Positions 19,094-29,143 of a stretch of 29,829 bases of DNA are shown piece after piece. Source of the DNA: a virus; the IMG/VR virus record IMGVR_UViG_3300034072_000396, positions 1 through 29,829 of that record. One strand, given 5' to 3'. The number at the start of each line of letters is the position of its first letter. Position 1 is the stretch's first letter. Below the pieces are notes generated by a model. It saw only the letters and a program-made list of their open reading frames with translations, searched no databases and had not been told where the DNA came from. Both the position numbers and the translations under genes were made by a program.

Positions 19094-19566
19094 CAGACTT
19101 TGTACCTGTGTTCCAGTGTGAGATTCAGACGTCGTGTGCCTGTGCTGCTGTTGACAGCTTCTGACCAGTTCGTGATGTTGACAGGGTGCGCAGTGTTCGT
19201 GGTGTTCGGCCACTTGCGTGATCCACCAAGCAAACGTGCCCACAGGTACGGCTTGCCAGCGATCACACCTGCCAGCGTGTCGATGTTGTCCAGGTCTTGG
19301 TTGCCGCCGTCGTTGTATCTGAATGGGTAAGACTCCACATTGAACGCCCTGCGCTTCGTGCCTTTGCCGAACGTCGCACCGCTCACATCAGCAATGCTGG
19401 CAAACTCAAAGAGCCAGTGTGCCTCAGGCTTCACGATGTAGATGGCCGTGGTAGTGTAGCCACTGTAGCCAGCAATGGTCGTAAGGCCCACGTCGTTGTA
19501 CGCAGTGCCTGCACCAGCGTCGGCGTTCGCTGCGTAGATGATCAGCTGCCAGTCTGTTAGAGCCAT
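19093..19566 (-). CDS. minor tail protein following the tape measure
   Basis: The 157-residue product starts 'MALTDWQLIIYAANADAGAG' and is rich in Tyr, Thr and Gly. It has 'YTTTAIYIVKPEAHWLFEFA' and ends 'TGTRRLNLTLEHRYKV'. The ATG shares one base with the tape-measure stop (TAATG). Its position immediately after the tape measure is where siphoviruses put distal tail proteins. I do not recognise a Dit fold with confidence. Confidence 0.62.
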   Translation of the reverse strand: MALTDWQLIIYAANADAGAGTAYNDVGLTTIAGYSGYTTTAIYIVKPEAHWLFEFASIADVSGATFGKGTKRRAFNVESYPFRYNDGGNQDLDNIDTLAGVIAGKPYLWARLLGGSRKWPNTTNTAHPVNITNWSEAVNSSTGTRRLNLTLEHRYKV

Positions 19567-22500
19567 TATCGCAATCCTCTCACCTGTTTACGGAATCGCT
19601 GCCGTTCATATAGCCTGTCATCAAGTGCAATGTCAACACCCATCTGTTGCTTCATCAGCGCTTGGTCTGGTATCCTGTCGAGACGATCGCGCACGTCAGC
19701 CATGATCGATGCCACCGTGCTGAGGCCGCCGTTGATGTCCACGAAGGTGCCGCTCTTTTCTTTGGCGATCAGATCCAATGGCCTGCCACTGTTCATCGCT
19801 TCGAGCACGTCACGGTATTTGCTCGTGGCTCGTGCGTTAACTACGAACTCACGACCGTGCACCACACCTGCCACTTCGTTGACGCCACCATTCCCAGTGT
19901 ATCCGCCCTCCTTAAAGCCACCTGACACCGCAGCACGTGCCGCAGCCACGAGGCCTTGCAAGATCGCTGTGGTCGCAGCCGCAGCTGCAAGGCCAGCAGC
20001 ACCAAAGGTTGCTACGTTCGCAGGGTTTGGCGATGCTGCATTGATACCGAATATCTGCGCAGTCAGCACAGGCACCAAGGCCTGCAAGCTATCGAGAGCC
20101 ACAAGCACCAGTGACTTGAAAGCATTTTCCCCACTGACCACAGCAGATGCGAAGGCACCAGCAGCAGCCGCTCCCACCTTGGCATACACGTCGCTGGTGG
20201 ATTGCTCCAGCTTGTTGTTCAGTGCATCCAGCTGATTGTTGCGCTGTTCTGCTGTCAGCGTGGTGTCATTGCTGACCTTCACAATGTCAGCCTGCACCTG
20301 GTTAAAATAGTCCAGCGAGGCCGTGGCCTGCGCTTGCGTGGATGCTGCCACCTGTTGCAGTGCTTGTGTCGCAGCCTGTGCGATCACTGACTGCGTGTCT
20401 ACGCTTGCAGACTCCAGTTGTGCCAGCCTGTCCAATGCTTCCTGGTAGGTGATCTCACCTGCACGCAGCGCCTCGTTGATGGCCTCCGCTTGCTCTGCCA
20501 GTTGGTTCGCTTGCTCTGCTGCATCCTCAGCATCGAGCTCCACCTTAAACTCACGCAGCGCACCGCTGATGCCGACGATCGTATCTTGGAAGCCACGCAG
20601 CTCACCAGTGCGCACCTTGTCGATGGCCTTCGCGAATCCTTGCTCTATCTCTGTGCGTTGTTCCTGTGTGAGATTCAAGTTCTGCAACAGAATGTCACGC
20701 TGATCTTCGAGCGCTGCCACTTGCTCTTCAATGCTACGGATGATGTCAGACCGCGTCTGTGCGATGCCAGCATCACGGAAGGCACGCGCCGTCTCACGTG
20801 CTGCATCCGAGCTTGCCAGTGCAGCACCGTCCCTAATGGCTTTGATCTGTTGCGCGATTAGGTCAGCGCCTGGCAGCTCACCAGCCAGCAGACCCTCTTC
20901 GATCGTGCGACGTAATGCATCGATCTGTTCCTTAGCTTGGTCTTCATTGATGAGGCCTGCCTGCACCTGTGCGAAGATAGCCTCTAATCCCTTCGTGAAC
21001 TGTGGCAATGACTCCACCAGGCCACGCACCTCTGCCTCTGCTGCTGAGGTGATCTGCTTAGTGCGTGCGTCTATGATCTTTGCCAGCGTGTCACCAGTCA
21101 GATCGAACGATGCGAACTGGCGTTCTAAGATCGTCAGCGTCTGTTCATTGATGGCAGCGACTGCATCACGTGCACGCTGCTCTGCGCTGATCAGGTTGTT
21201 GAGTCGCTCTTCTGCGAACTGGCCTTCGAGCGTCACACGCTCACGTTCCTGTGTTAGCACCAGCTGCTTCTGCTGTTCCAGCAGCTCTGCCAATGCAGCC
21301 TGCGCTTCCGGCCCACCAGCACCACCTGCACTGATCACTGCCTTCTGCAAGGCGATCTGTTCCTCCAGCGTCTTGGCTGCGGCTTCCTGCTGAATCCTTA
21401 GCAGCTCGGTCTCACGTTCCCGTGCATCTGCAATCAGGCCTGCTGTCAGCTCACGCTGCACACGCAATGTCTCAGCCGCTGCTGCTGCACGCTGTTGTGC
21501 CACCTGCTTCTGCCGTACCGGATCGATGGCGAAGGCAGCACGATCCTGCGCAGCTTCGAGAGCCCGTGCTTGTGCCTGTGCTTTGCGTGCCTCTGCTGTG
21601 AATTGCTTGGCACCTCCAGCAACAGCTGCCAAGTACTTGGTGACGTTGGCCTGTGCTGCTGCCAGTGCGTTATTGAAGTTGTCAGCCAGCTGGTTAACGT
21701 CACCAGCAGCCGTAAGTATTGCCGCCCTGTTAGCGTTGGCAAAGTCACGAATGACATCCTCTGCCACTTCGTACTTATCTGCAAGCGCTTTGATGGCATC
21801 GTCATTGAGCTTGTTTGCTTTGATCAGCCCAGTGACTGCTGCCTGCCATGCCTTAGTGTTGTCGGCTGCTGACTTGGCTGCATCGGCTGATGCCTCGCTG
21901 CCCTCTTCGACTAATCCGAGCGCCGATCCAATGGATGACACCAGACCACCGATCTTGTTTGATAGGTCAGTCACGAACTCAGCGACACCAGCGATGGCCT
22001 CACGGACGAAGTCGAACGACAGCGCCCAATCACGCACTGCCTTAGCAGTGCTGACCACGCCATTGATCAGATCGCTTGCAAGGTTGATGAGGCCACCGAC
22101 CACCGCCATAGTTGCCTTCAATGGCAGCAGCAGAACCTTGATTGCTACTGTCAGCACGGTCTTAATCACCTTGGCAAGGGCTGCCGTTACATTGCGTATT
22201 GTGTCGAATATCCCACCGACGTTGTCACCTTCGCCTGCCAAGTTCGTGAACGCTTCACGCACTGGCTTTGTAGCGTCTGCAAACTCAGCGAACAGATCGG
22301 AGATAGCACCGAACACCAGCTCAATGGCTGTGATGAATGGATTGAGAGCCACGTCAATCACATTGGTGATGATCTGTTGCAGCGTCTCGAAGATGCCACT
22401 AAACTCACCAAGCGCATCACCACCGAGTGCATCGCTGACAGCCTGTTTGATACGCAGGAAGCCATCGACAATCGGGTTGATAATGGGGGCCACGAACTCT

Positions 22501-23951
22501 TCGTAAAAGCTCACCAGCCCCTTGCCAATGTCTGTGATCGTGTCAGTGAAGGCACGCTCTAGCTTCTGGATTGGGTCTTGCTGTGCAAGGCGCTGATCGA
22601 TCAGCTGGCCTGCCTTGTCTGCTTGTGCCGTAATCTCATCTGTTGGTAGCGGTGCGCCGTAGACAGTAGCGTACAAATCGCTGCCCAAATCCTCAGCGAT
22701 GGAACCACCGAACAGCGTGAACAGCTCACCACGTGTTGCTTCGTTTATCTCACCTGCAGCACGTGCCTCTTCAATCGCTGCGACGCTGCGACGTGCCGCC
22801 TCTTCTGCTGTGATGACGCCTTGCTCTGCCAGCTGTGTGATGCCTTGCAGCGTATCACCGATCGGCCCTGCCACCTGTGCAACACCTGCTGCCAAATCAC
22901 CTGACTTGATCCTGTTGTTTAGCTCTTTGACGCCATCACCAATCTTCGCTAAATCTTTAATGCCAGCAGCTGATGCCTTCTGCAACATGGATCGAAAGCC
23001 GTCTGCACTTATGCCAGCCTCAGCAGCGTTGCCACTGAACTCATTAAACGTGTCCAGCAGGCCTTCAACATCAGCCACACCTGATTGCGAAGCAGCCGCC
23101 ACCTGGTTGAGTGCGTCATCATAGCTGATGCCGAATTGTTTGGCAATCTGTGCAGCACCTGTCAGCAGTGCTGGCGTCTCTACTCCCAGCGACTTTGCCA
23201 GAGCATCGGTGCGTGCCGCTGCTTCACCCAGGAAGTCATCTGGCACGACGCCTTGCAGCCTGTTGCGGAACTCACCAATCAGCGTGATCGATTCTGCGAC
23301 GTTCTCACCAAGGCCCTTTTGGAAGGCGATGCTGGCCTGATCTTCGAGCTTTTCAAGATCGGCACCTGTTAGGCCTGTCTGCACTTGTAGGTTCTTCAGT
23401 GCTTCGTTGGCTTCACGCCCTGCTGCCACCACAGTACCGATGGCAGCGCCAACAGCAGTGATCGCAGCACCAGCCGCTGCCAGTTGTGGGATAGGCAGCG
23501 CACTCAGCACGCCGCCCAACCCACCAGATGCGGCTTCACCAATCTTGCCAAGGCCGCCCACCTTTTCTTGCAAACCAGCAAAGAATCCACCAGTAGATGC
23601 TGTGGACTCTTCAACAGTGCCTGTCAGTTTCTTGAACTCTTCATCAATGCGTGCTGCTGATGCTGCGAACTCATCAGCTTCTGCCTTGGCCTTGTTAAGA
23701 TCAGCGAGCAGCCCATCGATGGCACCACTGTCACCGCTGGCAAGTGCAGACTTGAGTGCGTTCTCAAGTTCAGATACTCGCTTGTTAGCGATGCCAGCCT
23801 GTGTGTTGAATTGCTTGAAGCCATCACCGAGCTTCTGCTTCTCCAATGCCCTCAGCTCTTCACCCAATTCAATGGTGCGCTTTTCAGCGAGTGTCAGCCC
23901 TTTGACAAAATCGCCAACATCGACTGTGATTTCATTTGTCAGCTTAGCCAT
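19566..23951 (-). CDS. tail length tape measure protein
   Basis: The 1461-residue protein is the scaffold around which the tail tube polymerises. At the usual ~0.15 nm per residue it predicts a tail of about 210-220 nm. It is helical throughout, with hydrophobic stretches near 150-185 ('GGVLSALPIPQLAAAGAAIT') and 595-635 ('VLTVAIKVLLLPLKATMAVV') and near the C-terminus. These are likely the segments that enter the host envelope. Very long Ala/Gln/Glu coiled-coil regions fill 770-1250. The ATG follows a full-length Shine-Dalgarno (GGAGGTGAT). No lytic transglycosylase or peptidase motif is visible. Confidence 0.93.
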   Translation of the reverse strand: MAKLTNEITVDVGDFVKGLTLAEKRTIELGEELRALEKQKLGDGFKQFNTQAGIANKRVSELENALKSALASGDSGAIDGLLADLNKAKAEADEFAASAARIDEEFKKLTGTVEESTASTGGFFAGLQEKVGGLGKIGEAASGGLGGVLSALPIPQLAAAGAAITAVGAAIGTVVAAGREANEALKNLQVQTGLTGADLEKLEDQASIAFQKGLGENVAESITLIGEFRNRLQGVVPDDFLGEAAARTDALAKSLGVETPALLTGAAQIAKQFGISYDDALNQVAAASQSGVADVEGLLDTFNEFSGNAAEAGISADGFRSMLQKASAAGIKDLAKIGDGVKELNNRIKSGDLAAGVAQVAGPIGDTLQGITQLAEQGVITAEEAARRSVAAIEEARAAGEINEATRGELFTLFGGSIAEDLGSDLYATVYGAPLPTDEITAQADKAGQLIDQRLAQQDPIQKLERAFTDTITDIGKGLVSFYEEFVAPIINPIVDGFLRIKQAVSDALGGDALGEFSGIFETLQQIITNVIDVALNPFITAIELVFGAISDLFAEFADATKPVREAFTNLAGEGDNVGGIFDTIRNVTAALAKVIKTVLTVAIKVLLLPLKATMAVVGGLINLASDLINGVVSTAKAVRDWALSFDFVREAIAGVAEFVTDLSNKIGGLVSSIGSALGLVEEGSEASADAAKSAADNTKAWQAAVTGLIKANKLNDDAIKALADKYEVAEDVIRDFANANRAAILTAAGDVNQLADNFNNALAAAQANVTKYLAAVAGGAKQFTAEARKAQAQARALEAAQDRAAFAIDPVRQKQVAQQRAAAAAETLRVQRELTAGLIADARERETELLRIQQEAAAKTLEEQIALQKAVISAGGAGGPEAQAALAELLEQQKQLVLTQERERVTLEGQFAEERLNNLISAEQRARDAVAAINEQTLTILERQFASFDLTGDTLAKIIDARTKQITSAAEAEVRGLVESLPQFTKGLEAIFAQVQAGLINEDQAKEQIDALRRTIEEGLLAGELPGADLIAQQIKAIRDGAALASSDAARETARAFRDAGIAQTRSDIIRSIEEQVAALEDQRDILLQNLNLTQEQRTEIEQGFAKAIDKVRTGELRGFQDTIVGISGALREFKVELDAEDAAEQANQLAEQAEAINEALRAGEITYQEALDRLAQLESASVDTQSVIAQAATQALQQVAASTQAQATASLDYFNQVQADIVKVSNDTTLTAEQRNNQLDALNNKLEQSTSDVYAKVGAAAAGAFASAVVSGENAFKSLVLVALDSLQALVPVLTAQIFGINAASPNPANVATFGAAGLAAAAATTAILQGLVAAARAAVSGGFKEGGYTGNGGVNEVAGVVHGREFVVNARATSKYRDVLEAMNSGRPLDLIAKEKSGTFVDINGGLSTVASIMADVRDRLDRIPDQALMKQQMGVDIALDDRLYERQRFRKQVRGLR

Positions 23952-23955
23952 CCGA

Positions 23956-24321
23956 TCACCTCCGATGCTTTAGTTTGCGTTTGTTGAACTTCGAGCTGGT
24001 GCGCTCCATGAACCAGTCATCCTTGGTGTACTGTGGCTTACGTAGACTGATGGCCTTGTGCACCATAGCACGGCGGTGGTATGTCTCCAGTGCCATGTCG
24101 AGCACGGCATCCGGTGTCATGTTCCAATACCCTGCGTATCTCATCGCTGTTGCATCCACACGCACGTCTTCTGGTAAGTAGTCCACGTAATCCTCCGAAT
24201 CATCAAGCGTGCAGTCAGGATCATCCTTTGCCATCCCGTACTGATCACGCTGCACCACCTCTGCCACAGGCCACAGCCGTATGCAATACACCTCGAACTG
24301 AACGTTAAGCCACCTTTGCAC
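23956..24321 (-). CDS. tail assembly chaperone C-terminal extension (gpGT-type, by frameshift)
   Basis: This frame lies in +1 (equivalently -2) register to the chaperone before it. It contributes about 121 residues after slippage at 24322-24325. It reads 'VQRWLNVQFEVYCIRLWPVA', 'DATAMRYAGYWNMTPDAVLD', 'MALETYHRRAMVHKAI' and ends in a basic tail. The 'Y-NMTPDAVLDMALETY' motif is typical of the T part of gpGT proteins, which recruits the major tail protein to the tape measure. No good independent start with a ribosome site is visible. Fusion with the upstream frame gives 302 residues. Confidence 0.78.
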   Translation of the reverse strand: MQRWLNVQFEVYCIRLWPVAEVVQRDQYGMAKDDPDCTLDDSEDYVDYLPEDVRVDATAMRYAGYWNMTPDAVLDMALETYHRRAMVHKAISLRKPQYTKDDWFMERTSSKFNKRKLKHRR

Positions 24322-24865
24322 AAAAGTTCGTAACCCAGTCGGCCACCTCCGCAGCCGAAACATCGAGCCATTCGTCATCCGTGATGCCTTCGATGTGGTC
24401 GCTGATTGCGACCGCTTGTATGCACTCAATGCCCAGCCGTAGCGCCTCCAAATCTTCTGGGTAGCGTGGCGTGGTGAAGTGCAGCATCTTGGCAATGATC
24501 GGTGTTTCTTTCATGGTGTCGCTAAGTTCAGCCTGCATCTCTGCCAGGATGCGCTCACGGTACTCATCATCATTGAACGGCACCACTTCGCCTGTCTCTT
24601 CACATGCTCGCTCGTGCTGCTTGCGTCTTTCGTCCAAGCGGCGCTGCACCTCTGCCAGGTTCCACGTGCCATCCAATGACACCAGCCGCAACAGCTCAGG
24701 ATGCTTGCGTGTCACATCTACAAAGTAGCGTGTCATCTCAGCTTGGTTGGCTGCTTTGATGTGGCGCTTCATCTTGTCGGCCCACTCACGCAGGCTGTCT
24801 GCATTGCGAAGCGTGATAGGCTTGTGCTCGATGTTGCGTGCACCGCTGGCGAAGGTGATCTTCAT
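24305..24865 (-). CDS. tail assembly chaperone (gpG-type)
   Basis: The 186-residue product is helical and acidic: 'ITLRNADSLREWADKMKRHI', 'FNDDEYRERILAEMQAEL', 'LEALRLGIECIQAVAI'. It sits between the major tail protein block and the tape measure, the universal place for lambda G-like chaperones. It coats the tape measure before tube assembly. Its last codons (AAC TTT TGT) contain the likely slip site for the longer GT form. The start overlaps the GT-C-like gene stop as ATGA. The low-frequency fusion ratio cannot be judged from sequence. Confidence 0.85.
   Translation of the reverse strand: MKITFASGARNIEHKPITLRNADSLREWADKMKRHIKAANQAEMTRYFVDVTRKHPELLRLVSLDGTWNLAEVQRRLDERRKQHERACEETGEVVPFNDDEYRERILAEMQAELSDTMKETPIIAKMLHFTTPRYPEDLEALRLGIECIQAVAISDHIEGITDDEWLDVSAAEVADWVTNFCAKVA
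24322..24325 (-). promoter_or_regulatory. putative programmed frameshift site (TTT-T, +1)
   Basis: In the chaperone frame the end reads AAC TTT TGT GCA AAG. The phenylalanine tRNA on TTT can re-pair with TTT one base later, with the less common Cys codon TGT waiting in the A site. Translation then continues GTG CAA AGG, straight into the gpGT extension. The downstream frame cannot be reached by the common -1 slip. A -2 slip elsewhere in the overlap remains possible. Confidence 0.55.
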
Positions 24866-25722
24866 ACGTGGCTGTCAGGGATGAAACAAGTGATGAGGTA
24901 TCCAATGAATGCGAACTCATAAGTAAGGGCAACAGCAGCCGCAGCGCACAGCACGAACGGTGCCGCCTGCATCGTGCGCACACGATCGACGCTGACTGTC
25001 AGCGATGCCATAGCGATGATGAAAGCCAGCACTGCTTCTGTGGTTGGCTGCATCAGCCATGCCCAGACAGCGCCCCATGGCAGCACCCAGATACGCCAGT
25101 CGTGCGCTACCTTGCGATGCTCTGCCAGGCAGTAGGCACGGGGATCAGCCAGCCAAGGCACTCGCACCTCATCAGGATGCGTCGGCTTTGACTCCCTGCG
25201 CAATTGCAGCAGGACAAACCCAGCGACCAATGCCATGACCGCAGCAGGGGCGTTGTGTGACGTTACCCATATCATGAGAGGTCCGTACAGGAAAGATCGC
25301 TCATGCGCGATTTGTGAGGCAACTACGGCCATTGCAGCGGCCCATGGTGACCATAACGCCAGCAGGCCAGATGCTATGATGGTCAGCTGCGAAGTGGCAT
25401 CTACCAACGTAGTCCACGAACCCAGCCGACGTGTGGCAGGAAGCGCTCCCCACAGAGCTGCTGTAATCATGCCAGCCGTCGAACCGTACAGAGCCGCAGC
25501 CCACAGGTACAATCCCACGGCAGTCATGGCCAGCGAGGCCAGCGAAACGACAGGCCAGTTGCTGATGTACTTAGCAACAGACCGCAGGCTGTAGGGGCGC
25601 GGCACAAACTCACCACGCCCCATAGCCAAATAGAATGCACCATCAGGTGTGACCACGTCACCACGCTGCCACCGTGTGACGGCAGCAGGCAACAAAGCCA
25701 GGATGATGGCAGCAGCGATCAT
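24862..25722 (-). CDS. polytopic membrane protein resembling GT-C glycosyltransferases
   Basis: The 286-residue protein has about eight hydrophobic helices (near 2-16, 56-80, 82-96, 113-138, 145-175, 208-224, 227-245 and 253-280). The first external loop has 'TPDGAFYLAMGRG' (Asp27) and 'VPRPYSLR' (40-47). An acidic residue in the first loop and a D-G-x-x-Y-L pattern are common in GT-C enzymes, which use polyprenyl-phosphate sugars. 'IAHERSFLYGP' (139-148) also fits. It lies inside the tail operon, coupled by ATGA to the major tail protein before it and the chaperone after it, which is a very unusual place for a membrane protein. A superinfection-exclusion protein is the alternative. Confidence 0.6.
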   Translation of the reverse strand: MIAAAIILALLPAAVTRWQRGDVVTPDGAFYLAMGRGEFVPRPYSLRSVAKYISNWPVVSLASLAMTAVGLYLWAAALYGSTAGMITAALWGALPATRRLGSWTTLVDATSQLTIIASGLLALWSPWAAAMAVVASQIAHERSFLYGPLMIWVTSHNAPAAVMALVAGFVLLQLRRESKPTHPDEVRVPWLADPRAYCLAEHRKVAHDWRIWVLPWGAVWAWLMQPTTEAVLAFIIAMASLTVSVDRVRTMQAAPFVLCAAAAVALTYEFAFIGYLITCFIPDSHV

Positions 25723-26270
25723 CCGTAGAACACCGCGCCGTATTTGTCGAGGTCAGAGTCCAGGAACTTGTCAACGTGAGTTGTAAGCATACCGCTGAAC
25801 AGCACCGACGTCAGCGTGATGTCACCTTCCAGAGCCGCAGCGGTGAACACCAGCGATGGCCGGTTGTACGTGTTGCCAGACTGCGACCATGAGCCGCTGG
25901 CCTTCGACAGTGCACCTGCACAGGCGAATACCTTGGTCTTGTCGCTTCCTACTTGCACGCCGCCTTTGACTACGCACAAGAGCTGAGTGCCAGAAGCAGC
26001 GCCCAGCAGCTGCGTGCCATCCTCAAACAGGATGTCTTCAATCCCGCCGCCTTCGCTCTGTGGAGCATAGGTGCGAATGAAGTCTGAAAAAGTCTGATCG
26101 TCTTGGATTTGTTCGATCGTGATTGTGGCAAGGCCTGTGTCATCCTTGGCCACGTCGGTGCTGATCTGGTCAGTACCAACGAATAGCGGCGTCGTGCCTA
26201 CCGTTGGCGTAATCCCGTTTGTGAACAGGTAGAACGCAACAGAGCGGCCGCCGTGAATAATGCGAGCCAT
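25719..26270 (-). CDS. major tail (tube) protein
   Basis: The 183-residue beta-rich product forms the stacked tube of the tail. It starts 'MARIIHGGRSVAFYLFTNGI' and contains 'TTPLFVGTDQISTDVAKDDT', 'CVVKGGVQVGSDKTKVFACA' and the late segment 'ALEGDITLTSVLFSGMLTTH'. Size, position two genes before the chaperones and Thr/Ser/Gly richness support the call. The start shares one base with the glycosyltransferase stop (TAATG) and the stop overlaps the membrane gene (ATGA). The many surface Ser/Thr residues are possible glycosylation targets. Confidence 0.78.
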   Translation of the reverse strand: MARIIHGGRSVAFYLFTNGITPTVGTTPLFVGTDQISTDVAKDDTGLATITIEQIQDDQTFSDFIRTYAPQSEGGGIEDILFEDGTQLLGAASGTQLLCVVKGGVQVGSDKTKVFACAGALSKASGSWSQSGNTYNRPSLVFTAAALEGDITLTSVLFSGMLTTHVDKFLDSDLDKYGAVFYG

Positions 26271-27049
26271 TACTTGGTTCCTTCTTTGAGTGTGAGTTGC
26301 ATTTCGGTCATAGCATTCATGCTGTCGCGCAGGTTGTTAGCATAGAACGAACGCAGCCCCTCATCTTGGTTTTCGTGCACCTCCATGAGTAGCAGTTCCA
26401 CGTTGCGCTCCATCTTGGCAAGCCGCGTTTCCAGTGATGCGTTGTAGCCTTCGTGGATGACGATAATAGATGTAGGCTGAGCACCCCAGCCGAGCTTCTG
26501 GATGTTAGGATAGATTTGCTCGTGGACACGGCCGACCCACTTTGCGCCTGTGCTGCCACGATACAGTCGCAGCTGATAGGCCGACGAAACGCTCCCCATG
26601 TTGGAGTGCGTCTTGCCGTTAAAGTCAGGTTCGTACGATACCACGCCAGCGAACGCACCGCCAGTCCCTGGTGGTGATTGCTTCGCTACTCTTGCGATCC
26701 GCTCGTGTTGGCAGTGCGCAAGCCGATCGTCAGAGTCTATCCAGAATCTCCAGTCATTCGTCGCCATCTCATCAGCCAGGTTGCGAGCATGACCGAAATG
26801 GAAGTCGCCAGTGTATATCCACTTGCGATTGCGGATCGTGCGAGTACCTTGCTGCACGACTTCCATTTCCGACAGGCTCTCCTCCTGGCCCTGCATATTC
26901 GACAGGATGCACACCTCGCAATGCTGTGGCAGCGTCTCCATCATGCGTGCCAGGTGTTGCAGGTCTTCATTGCGAGTGATCACGACGAAGCTGACAGGGA
27001 ATAGCTCTTGTGTATCCTGTGGTGCACCTTGCTGGGGTGTATTGTTCAT
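26270..27049 (-). CDS. GT2-type glycosyltransferase (SunS-like, soluble)
   Basis: The 259-residue product is a GT-A fold transferase that uses an activated nucleotide sugar. 'VSFVVITRNE' (19-28) opens the nucleotide-binding fold, the metal-binding motif is D105-S-D-D108 (WIDSDD), and 'WVGRVHEQI' (171-179) plus 'IVIHEGYN' (196-203) match the acceptor-side signature of GT2 enzymes like SunS. There is no membrane helix, unlike GtrB. I chose the ATG at 27047-27049 (ATGA with the upstream stop). It lies directly before the major tail gene, so its target may be a virion protein. Modification of a host glycan or DNA is the alternative. Confidence 0.86.
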   Translation of the reverse strand: MNNTPQQGAPQDTQELFPVSFVVITRNEDLQHLARMMETLPQHCEVCILSNMQGQEESLSEMEVVQQGTRTIRNRKWIYTGDFHFGHARNLADEMATNDWRFWIDSDDRLAHCQHERIARVAKQSPPGTGGAFAGVVSYEPDFNGKTHSNMGSVSSAYQLRLYRGSTGAKWVGRVHEQIYPNIQKLGWGAQPTSIIVIHEGYNASLETRLAKMERNVELLLMEVHENQDEGLRSFYANNLRDSMNAMTEMQLTLKEGTK

Positions 27050-27519
27050 AGTGCGATATGTAGATAGTTGATGTCCAGTTGTGCTCCCACAGCAATGCCA
27101 TTGCCGCCTGTGTCCCAGTGGCCATCCCATCCGATAAATCGGAACCCAGTGATCACGGTCTTAAACAGACCGCCCGTGTGTGTGTCGCTGGGTTTGCTGC
27201 TTATGATCGCAGACTCCCAATTCGCCAGGGCATCCTCAGCAGCCTGCACGATCTCACCATACTTGGCAGTGCCCAGCCCTTGGTTTTGTGGATCGCTCTG
27301 AACGCGGGCGTCAAACAATATCCCTACCGTGCACGTTCCCGTGCTGTCACCAGCGCCATCCTCCAGTACTTCTCCCACCGTCTGCGTGACGATGTAAGGG
27401 TAGCAGTTGACGTCTGCATTGAACGATGGCCTATGCACCTTGTGGACGGTGAACAGGGCGTTGGCATCCAGTGCATTGCGCACCGAATCGAGTATGAATA
27501 CTGATCTGTTAGCGGCCAA
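27046..27519 (-). CDS. probable tail terminator protein
   Basis: The 157-residue product reads as the alpha/beta fold of tail terminators, which cap the tail tube and join it to the head: 'FILDSVRNALDANALFTVHK', 'CYPYIVTQTVGEVLED', 'IVQAAEDALANW', and a closing strand 'GAQLDINYLHIAL'. It follows the gp10-like connector (11-nt overlap) and precedes the tail-tube block, the standard position. Sequence-only recognition is moderate and gene order carries much of the weight. Confidence 0.68.
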   Translation of the reverse strand: MAANRSVFILDSVRNALDANALFTVHKVHRPSFNADVNCYPYIVTQTVGEVLEDGAGDSTGTCTVGILFDARVQSDPQNQGLGTAKYGEIVQAAEDALANWESAIISSKPSDTHTGGLFKTVITGFRFIGWDGHWDTGGNGIAVGAQLDINYLHIAL

Positions 27520-28018: not shown

Positions 28019-28580
28019 AGACGATGTACCTTGATAGTCGCTGTGTCACACGTGGTCGCATCTGTAGGATGGCCTTGGAGAATGCCACGCCTGCATCGGT
28101 CTCTGTGATGGCCGACACACCGAAGCGCTCCGCATCAGCAGCCCATGGTGTTTCGTAGTACAGTTCCTTCACCATCTCGTAAGCGCACAGCTGCACGTCC
28201 TGCGGCACCGTAGCATACCCTGCTGTTAGATCGATCTTGTAGTACCTGGCAGCGAAGCCGTTGGAAGCATACAGACTGTAGCCATCCACGGATGGCATGA
28301 CGTAATAGCCAGAGCCTACCACCCACGCCTCGCTTGGATCGCTGCGCGTGGACACCGTAGTGAGCGCCACAGTCGTCGTGTAAGGCAGGCGCATGATCTG
28401 TCTGTTGTTGCCTTCCATGTACCGCGTCACCGCCTTCTGTGCGATGGGCTGATTGCAGATGCCGTCGATCTCTTCGCTGACCATGTCAATCAGCCTGTCA
28501 ATCATGGCGTCGTGCGTGGTGTCGCTGGCTGCTATGTTGAGCCAGTCGCTCTTCAGGATCGCTCGTGATACTATTGCCAT
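28008..28580 (-). CDS. HK97 gp6-like head completion/connector protein
   Basis: The 190-residue product begins 'AILKSDWLNIAASDTTHDAM' and continues 'IDRLIDMVSEEIDGICNQPI', the helical start of gp6/gp15-type ring proteins. A beta section follows ('MRLPYTTTVALTTV'). 'IDLTAGYATVPQDVQLCAYE' is a hallmark of the family. It would form the ring under the portal that retains DNA. Directly upstream lies the endolysin (TGATG junction), which is an uncommon neighbour. Confidence 0.85.
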   Translation of the reverse strand: MAIVSRAILKSDWLNIAASDTTHDAMIDRLIDMVSEEIDGICNQPIAQKAVTRYMEGNNRQIMRLPYTTTVALTTVSTRSDPSEAWVVGSGYYVMPSVDGYSLYASNGFAARYYKIDLTAGYATVPQDVQLCAYEMVKELYYETPWAADAERFGVSAITETDAGVAFSKAILQMRPRVTQRLSRYIVYGV

Positions 28581-29143
28581 CAGGCCACCTCATGACGAAA
28601 CAGGAACTCATACACGACGTCATCGTCATCACTGAGGTGCTTTGGCAGTCGGTAGTCCAGCACTTGCGTGTGTGCGAACTTGCGAACGTTCACCTCATCA
28701 GACTGGTTGCCTCCGAGCACGTACACGTAGAATGCATCCTCACCGACCTTAAAGCCTACGTGTCCACCGCCTTTGCGTTTCATGACCACCACGCAGCCGT
28801 TCGGGCGGAAGTCATCACAAGGCACGCCCCACCCAGACCATGAGCGTGCCGCAGCTGAGTCCGTGCCTTTGTAGCCTGCCTGCTCGATGCACCAGTTAAC
28901 AAAGGAGGAACACCACGGCACGCTGTCCTGCGTGGCTTTGAGAGACGTGGTCGCATGGTACTCCACGATGCGGTCATTGTTGCCAGAGCCTGCAACCTCT
29001 TTGACGCCTTGCTCACCTTCTGCGATCGTGTGCCAGCTGAACTTCATGTCCGTGCGTGGCGTCACAGTCCAGGTAGTTTGGGCTTGCGTCTGTTCAGCTT
29101 TTCGTTCGCCATCTTTAGTGCGAACATCTTGATTTGCAGCCAT
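28580..29143 (-). CDS. endolysin, CHAP/NlpC-P60-type peptidoglycan peptidase (TIGR02594-like)
   Basis: The 187-residue enzyme cleaves peptide cross-links of the cell wall for lysis. The catalytic triad is visible as Cys78 (VPWCSSFVNW), His128 (GGGHVGF) and Asn146 (VLGGNQSDEV). 'AARSWSGWGVPCDDFRPNG' between them matches the TIGR02594 family. The N-terminal ~30 residues are charged and overlap the preceding tiny ORF. No signal peptide is present, so release depends on the holin encoded just upstream. GAGAGG lies about 8 nt before the ATG. Confidence 0.93.
   Translation of the reverse strand: MAANQDVRTKDGERKAEQTQAQTTWTVTPRTDMKFSWHTIAEGEQGVKEVAGSGNNDRIVEYHATTSLKATQDSVPWCSSFVNWCIEQAGYKGTDSAAARSWSGWGVPCDDFRPNGCVVVMKRKGGGHVGFKVGEDAFYVYVLGGNQSDEVNVRKFAHTQVLDYRLPKHLSDDDDVVYEFLFRHEVA

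Follow-up and report, generated by a model that had tools for sequence, protein, structure and literature searches.

The locus described here raises the question of why a phage would place a predicted glycosyltransferase gene directly before its tail tube gene and a polytopic membrane protein gene directly after it, and whether the three products act together. The window, meaning the whole 29,829-nt stretch that was analyzed, comes from IMG/VR virus record IMGVR_UViG_3300034072_000396. The genes on its minus strand begin with a protein containing two transmembrane (TM) segments, followed by a CHAP-domain protein, a head-tail connector, a Neck1-like protein and a terminator, and continue with the GT2 enzyme, the tube protein, the membrane protein, a chaperone pair and the tape measure. 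The features of interest are as follows.

27046..27519, minus strand: presumed tail terminator, 157 aa, so named because it lies between the Neck1/tail-completion protein and the tube protein
26270..27049, minus strand: soluble GT2 enzyme (GT-A fold), SunS/GmaR-like, a predicted protein glycosyltransferase, 259 aa
25719..26270, minus strand: presumed major tail (tube) protein, 183 aa, the likely acceptor, named by synteny
24862..25722, minus strand: polytopic GT-C-like membrane protein, 286 aa, with an invariant Asp27 in its first loop
24305..24865, minus strand: presumed tail assembly chaperone, 186 aa, so named because it precedes the tape measure
23956..24495, minus strand: second chaperone reading frame, a putative programmed frameshift, overlapping the first in a +1/-2 relation
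19566..23951, minus strand: tail tape measure protein, 1461 aa (PhageMin_Tail 4e-10, phrog_1272 2.5e-26)

A reading made from the sequence alone had placed the glycosyltransferase, tube and membrane genes here with overlaps of 1-4 nt, and direct inspection of the junctions bears this out. The terminator/GT2, tube/membrane and membrane/chaperone junctions are each ATGA, a 4-nt overlap, and the GT2/tube junction is TAATG, an overlap of 1 nt. The start of the GT2 gene was set at the ATG at 27049 rather than at the open reading frame start at 27130 because of the 4-nt overlap with the upstream stop. All three genes are under purifying selection, with dN/dS values of about 0.06-0.2 for the GT2, 0.12-0.15 for the tube protein and 0.07-0.38 for the membrane protein. 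The family searches found no match for the terminator. The +1/-2 chaperone overlap (window 23956-24865) also occurs in two related contigs (L003 and L007), and therefore points to a putative programmed frameshift; only the downstream part of the second frame is expected to be expressed. The CHAP-domain protein, encoded at 28580-29143 and flanked by the 2-TM protein and the connector, matches endolysins as well as baseplate hub/tail lysozyme domains from large phages of Klebsiella and Erwinia, the latter at about 50% identity.

The GT2 protein contains the three motifs first noticed in it, DSDD (105-108), VHEQI (175-179) and IHEGY (198-202), and in nine relatives D105, D107, H176, E177, Q178, I179, H199, G201 and Y202 are invariant. 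Searched alone, the window protein (P0001) fell just under the cut-off of Pfam PF00535 (3e-4, 21.1 bits against 23.3 bits) and matched the NCBIfam SunS model at 1e-7 (30.9 bits), a model that is matched by all nine relatives. Membership in the SunS family proper (the TIGR04195 equivalog) was rejected, since 30.9 bits compares with a curated cut-off of 350 and makes the protein a distant relative only. A profile built from the nine phage relatives and run against PDB sequences found SunS (9e-17), GmaR (1e-14) and ThuS (6e-11), the fifth and final match being a generic GT2 (1e-5). The AlphaFold model (pLDDT 89.6) gave 172 Foldseek matches in the PDB at E<=0.001, glycosyltransferases foremost, with SunS and ThuS top-ranked. 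The fold, these matches and the invariant acidic residues D105 and D107 place the protein among the GT2 enzymes of GT-A fold. The HE, HxGY and RN positions that it has in common with its nearest solved homologues, which act on proteins or peptides, place it in the SunS/GmaR-like group.

By profile and by predicted structure, then, the enzyme is SunS/GmaR/ThuS-like, and its best solved relatives put sugars on proteins or peptides. The existence of the GT2 enzyme is thereby upheld, and its type can be narrowed to the protein-glycosylating one. No TM window was found in it, which excludes a bactoprenol enzyme of the GtrB type. Among isolate phages, tblastn with the GT2 matched only SPbeta-type and unannotated Listeria records; no mycobacteriophage match was found.

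The tube protein had no Pfam, PHROG or PDB sequence match, its family profile returned nothing useful from the PDB, and a search of isolate phages was likewise without a match. Its identity was assigned from synteny only, with the terminator upstream and the chaperone pair (+1/-2 overlap) and tape measure downstream. Tube-protein and GT2 searches yielded 12 related contigs besides the window, and the tube relatives in these are 39-77% identical to the window protein. In every one of the 13 contigs the tube gene is immediately preceded by the GT2 gene, although GT2 identity falls to about 30%; some of them, L066 included, were located through the tube protein alone, yet carry the GT2. No conserved cysteine is present in the tube family. 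S-glycosylation of the kind carried out by SunS was rejected for this reason, and O-linkage is favored. The Ser and Thr residues that do not vary in the family (T17, T38, T49, T51, S125, S127 and T164) are the leading candidate sites.

The gene order of this synteny-rich phage group could be partly inherited. More distant GT2 relatives, which are larger proteins from other phages, are by their gene neighborhoods a line of evidence independent of the synteny in the tube contigs. An SU10-type major capsid gene (PF17236) lies upstream of the GT2 on the same strand in 16 of 29 such loci and downstream in none, and the arrangement recurs in 12 of the 22 GT2 clusters formed at 50% identity. Gaps between the two genes are mostly 361-753 nt. 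Linkage of the enzyme gene to a structural gene is thus seen both with the tube (13/13 contigs) and with the major capsid protein (16/29 distant loci), suggesting that capsids are glycosylated in other uncultured phages. Depending on the phage, the GT2 clade accompanies a shell gene or a tube gene, as expected of a dedicated virion-modifying enzyme.

The 16 loci fall within L025-L053 (for example, L034:5514-8717 and L027:3489-6176), with the GT2 gene just 3' of the SU10-type capsid gene and usually one small gene in between. At L025:4875-6363, the capsid match consists of two parts separated by about 475 nt, where an intervening element may lie.

The membrane protein is harder to place. It had no family match in Pfam, PHROGs or NCBIfam, no match in tblastn of isolate phages and no relatives in pattern scans of bacterial genomes; its family profile found nothing useful in the PDB, with no sequence similarity to GT-C structures. 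A comparison with viral models gave one homologue, a 284-aa protein of an uncultured phage with 29% identity. The first loop contains DGAFYL and VPRPYSLR, as originally described, and the family as a whole has an invariant motif there, PDGxxYxxxGRGxxxPxPYxxR (P26, D27, G28, Y31, G35-G37, P41, P43, Y44 and R47); R98 and D108 are also conserved. Asp27 is a candidate catalytic residue. The loop is rich in Arg and Lys, and the positive-inside rule would put it in the cytoplasm, which counts against a GT-C-type active site on the other side of the membrane.

The fold comparison that the sequence-only reading had proposed for this 286-residue protein was run with Foldseek on a low-confidence AlphaFold model (pLDDT 57.8, pTM 0.62). 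The first nine PDB matches all have the GT-C fold and include STT3, ALG12, ArnT and further oligosaccharyltransferase structures, with probabilities of 0.99 to 0.69 and a best E value of 0.027. Later matches are mostly unrelated transporters with probabilities below 0.1, together with a few more entries of GT-C fold, such as PIG-U and archaeal OST, at 0.2-0.5. Because no match reaches E 0.001, we regard the result as support for a GT-C-like fold and not as proof. The original GT-C-like guess thus gains modest structural support, while the PDB profile search was empty.

The protein might instead be a structural or signaling protein without enzymatic activity, for instance a factor in superinfection exclusion or lysis timing, with a helical bundle whose resemblance to GT-C enzymes is superficial. 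Its small size for a GT-C enzyme, the missing family match, the low-confidence model and the weak best E value would all be consistent with this. However, the high-probability PDB matches belong to a single fold class, and conservation is strongest in the first-loop Asp motif (PDGxxY...GRG...PxPYxxR), as GT-C enzymes would show. We consider a non-enzyme a minority possibility that deserves some weight.

Whether the three genes form a unit can be judged from the related contigs. The membrane gene follows the tube gene in 9 of the 13 contigs, mostly with short overlaps, is absent from three and is an internally deleted remnant in one. The absences are in L004, L017 and L066, whose records may be fragments, and in all three the chaperone follows the tube gene. 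L004 is a close relative of the window (GT2 75% and tube 77% identical), yet has no membrane gene. In a further contig, L059, a full-length membrane gene is flanked by a peptidase-like lysis gene on one side and the head-tail connector on the other. L021 and L060 have an internally deleted copy at this same lysis gene/connector locus, which keeps the first TM segment, the loop motif and the C-terminus; GT2 and tube genes are intact in L021. The deletion in L060:6932-7150 relative to L059:6920-7837 is in frame and leaves an open reading frame. The two ends of contig G008 each hold part of the membrane gene, which indicates a circular map of about 34.6 kb.

Relatives that lack the membrane gene or have only a remnant of it still keep GT2 and tube, and so retention of the GT2 does not depend on the membrane protein. 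The same three-gene order does recur elsewhere, as the nine contigs show, while the other four have no intact adjoining membrane gene. A fixed GT2-tube-GT-C triplet was rejected on these grounds (no gene in L004, L017 and L066, a deletion in L021, a position before the connector in L059), and the idea of a three-gene module does not survive, as relatives drop or move the membrane gene and keep the other two.

These losses bear on two further explanations in which the glycosyltransferases work as a pair. The active site of GT-C enzymes faces outward from the membrane and draws on lipid-linked sugar donors, and phage tails assemble in the cytoplasm. The suggestion that the virion is the target of both enzymes, with the GT-C-like protein building or handing over a lipid-linked sugar bound for the tail, would fit the ordered triplet in nine contigs; we find it very improbable, given that a GT-C active site would lie across the membrane from the tails in the cytoplasm and that the GT2 is kept without the membrane gene in relatives as close as L004.

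The other explanation follows serotype conversion, in which gtrB and a serotype-specific gtr gene form a GT2 and GT-C enzyme pair. Here the GT2 would load bactoprenol, the GT-C-like protein would modify a surface polysaccharide and block superinfection, and the tube gene would be a mere neighbor. The pairing matches and both genes share one operon, but the GT2 has no transmembrane segments and resembles SunS and GmaR rather than GtrB. Moreover, no GtrA-like flippase gene is found among the minus-strand membrane ORFs of the window, the genes sit in a late structural operon, and L004, L017, L066 and L021 retain the GT2 without an intact membrane gene. We judge this explanation improbable. A complete gtrABC serotype cassette was rejected, the GT2 having no TM windows and the window no GtrA-like ORF.

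We lean somewhat toward a reading in which the GT2 glycosylates the tube protein and the compact GT-C-like protein has a task of its own at the envelope. Its first half seems quite likely. The GT2 would be a cytoplasmic, nucleotide-sugar-using enzyme that is produced along with the tail and serves the neighboring tube protein exclusively, which it would glycosylate probably on Ser/Thr; the translational overlap with the tube gene would supply enzyme and substrate together. On the second half our confidence is evenly balanced. The membrane protein would correspond roughly to a core GT-C module that rides facultatively in the late operon. Working on the outward side of the membrane, it would most likely take sugar from a polyprenyl-phosphate carrier and, late in infection, add it to an envelope glycan of the host. 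Because a GT-C site and cytoplasmic tails lie on opposite sides of the membrane, the acceptors of the two proteins probably differ. The genes with their junctions, conservation and linkage, the fold and nearest relatives of the GT2, and the losses and moves of the membrane gene are observations; the acceptor, deduced from the gene neighborhood, is inferred, as are the sugar, the GT-C activity and the biological purpose.

A bolder form, which we think unlikely, is that a phage of roughly 30-36 kb coats its tube by means of the GT2 and re-glycosylates the host surface with a minimal stand-alone GT-C enzyme. If this were true, progeny would be kept from binding again to infected cells or to debris, and the compact GT-C-like proteins would make up a new class of phage enzyme.

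Glycosylation of virions by phage enzymes is already known, mycobacteriophages being reported to modify both capsid and tail tube proteins with enzymes that they encode (PMC12363180). Two things are new, namely the link of a SunS/GmaR-like clade to tube genes and to capsid genes of SU10 type, and the presence of a compact GT-C-like family within a tail operon. A GT2 clade of protein-glycosylating type is tied to genes of the virion shell in two contexts that are unrelated, the tail tube and the SU10-type capsid, which suggests that dedicated virion glycosylation is common in uncultured phages, well beyond the mycobacteriophages. The GT2 and the tube protein make a testable enzyme-acceptor pair.

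Several known systems resemble parts of this locus. The gtrABC cassettes likewise combine a GT2 and a polytopic glycosyltransferase gene in a phage; unlike them, the window has no GtrA, a GT2 without a membrane anchor and a late structural operon as the setting. The GT-C enzymes STT3/PglB, ALG12 and ArnT may share a fold class with the membrane protein, as Foldseek suggests, and like it have a first-loop Asp after TM1, but the matched structures have about 420-860 aa against 286 aa and no sequence similarity. In the mycobacteriophage systems (Che8 gp110, Corndog gp38 and Myrna), phage-encoded enzymes target capsid and tube proteins, and the available part of the report mentions no membrane GT-C partner (PMC12363180). 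The peptide S-glycosyltransferases SunS and ThuS (SPbeta sublancin and thurandacin) have the same GT-A fold, aspartate motif and HE, HxGY and RN positions as the window GT2; they act on small bacteriocins, whereas its neighbor is a tail tube protein without a conserved cysteine. GmaR of Listeria, which has a related GT2 domain (E 1e-14), transfers GlcNAc to flagellin, a helical filament/tube protein, and carries TPR and antirepressor domains (PMC9638930), whereas the phage protein consists of the glycosyltransferase domain and C-terminal helices.
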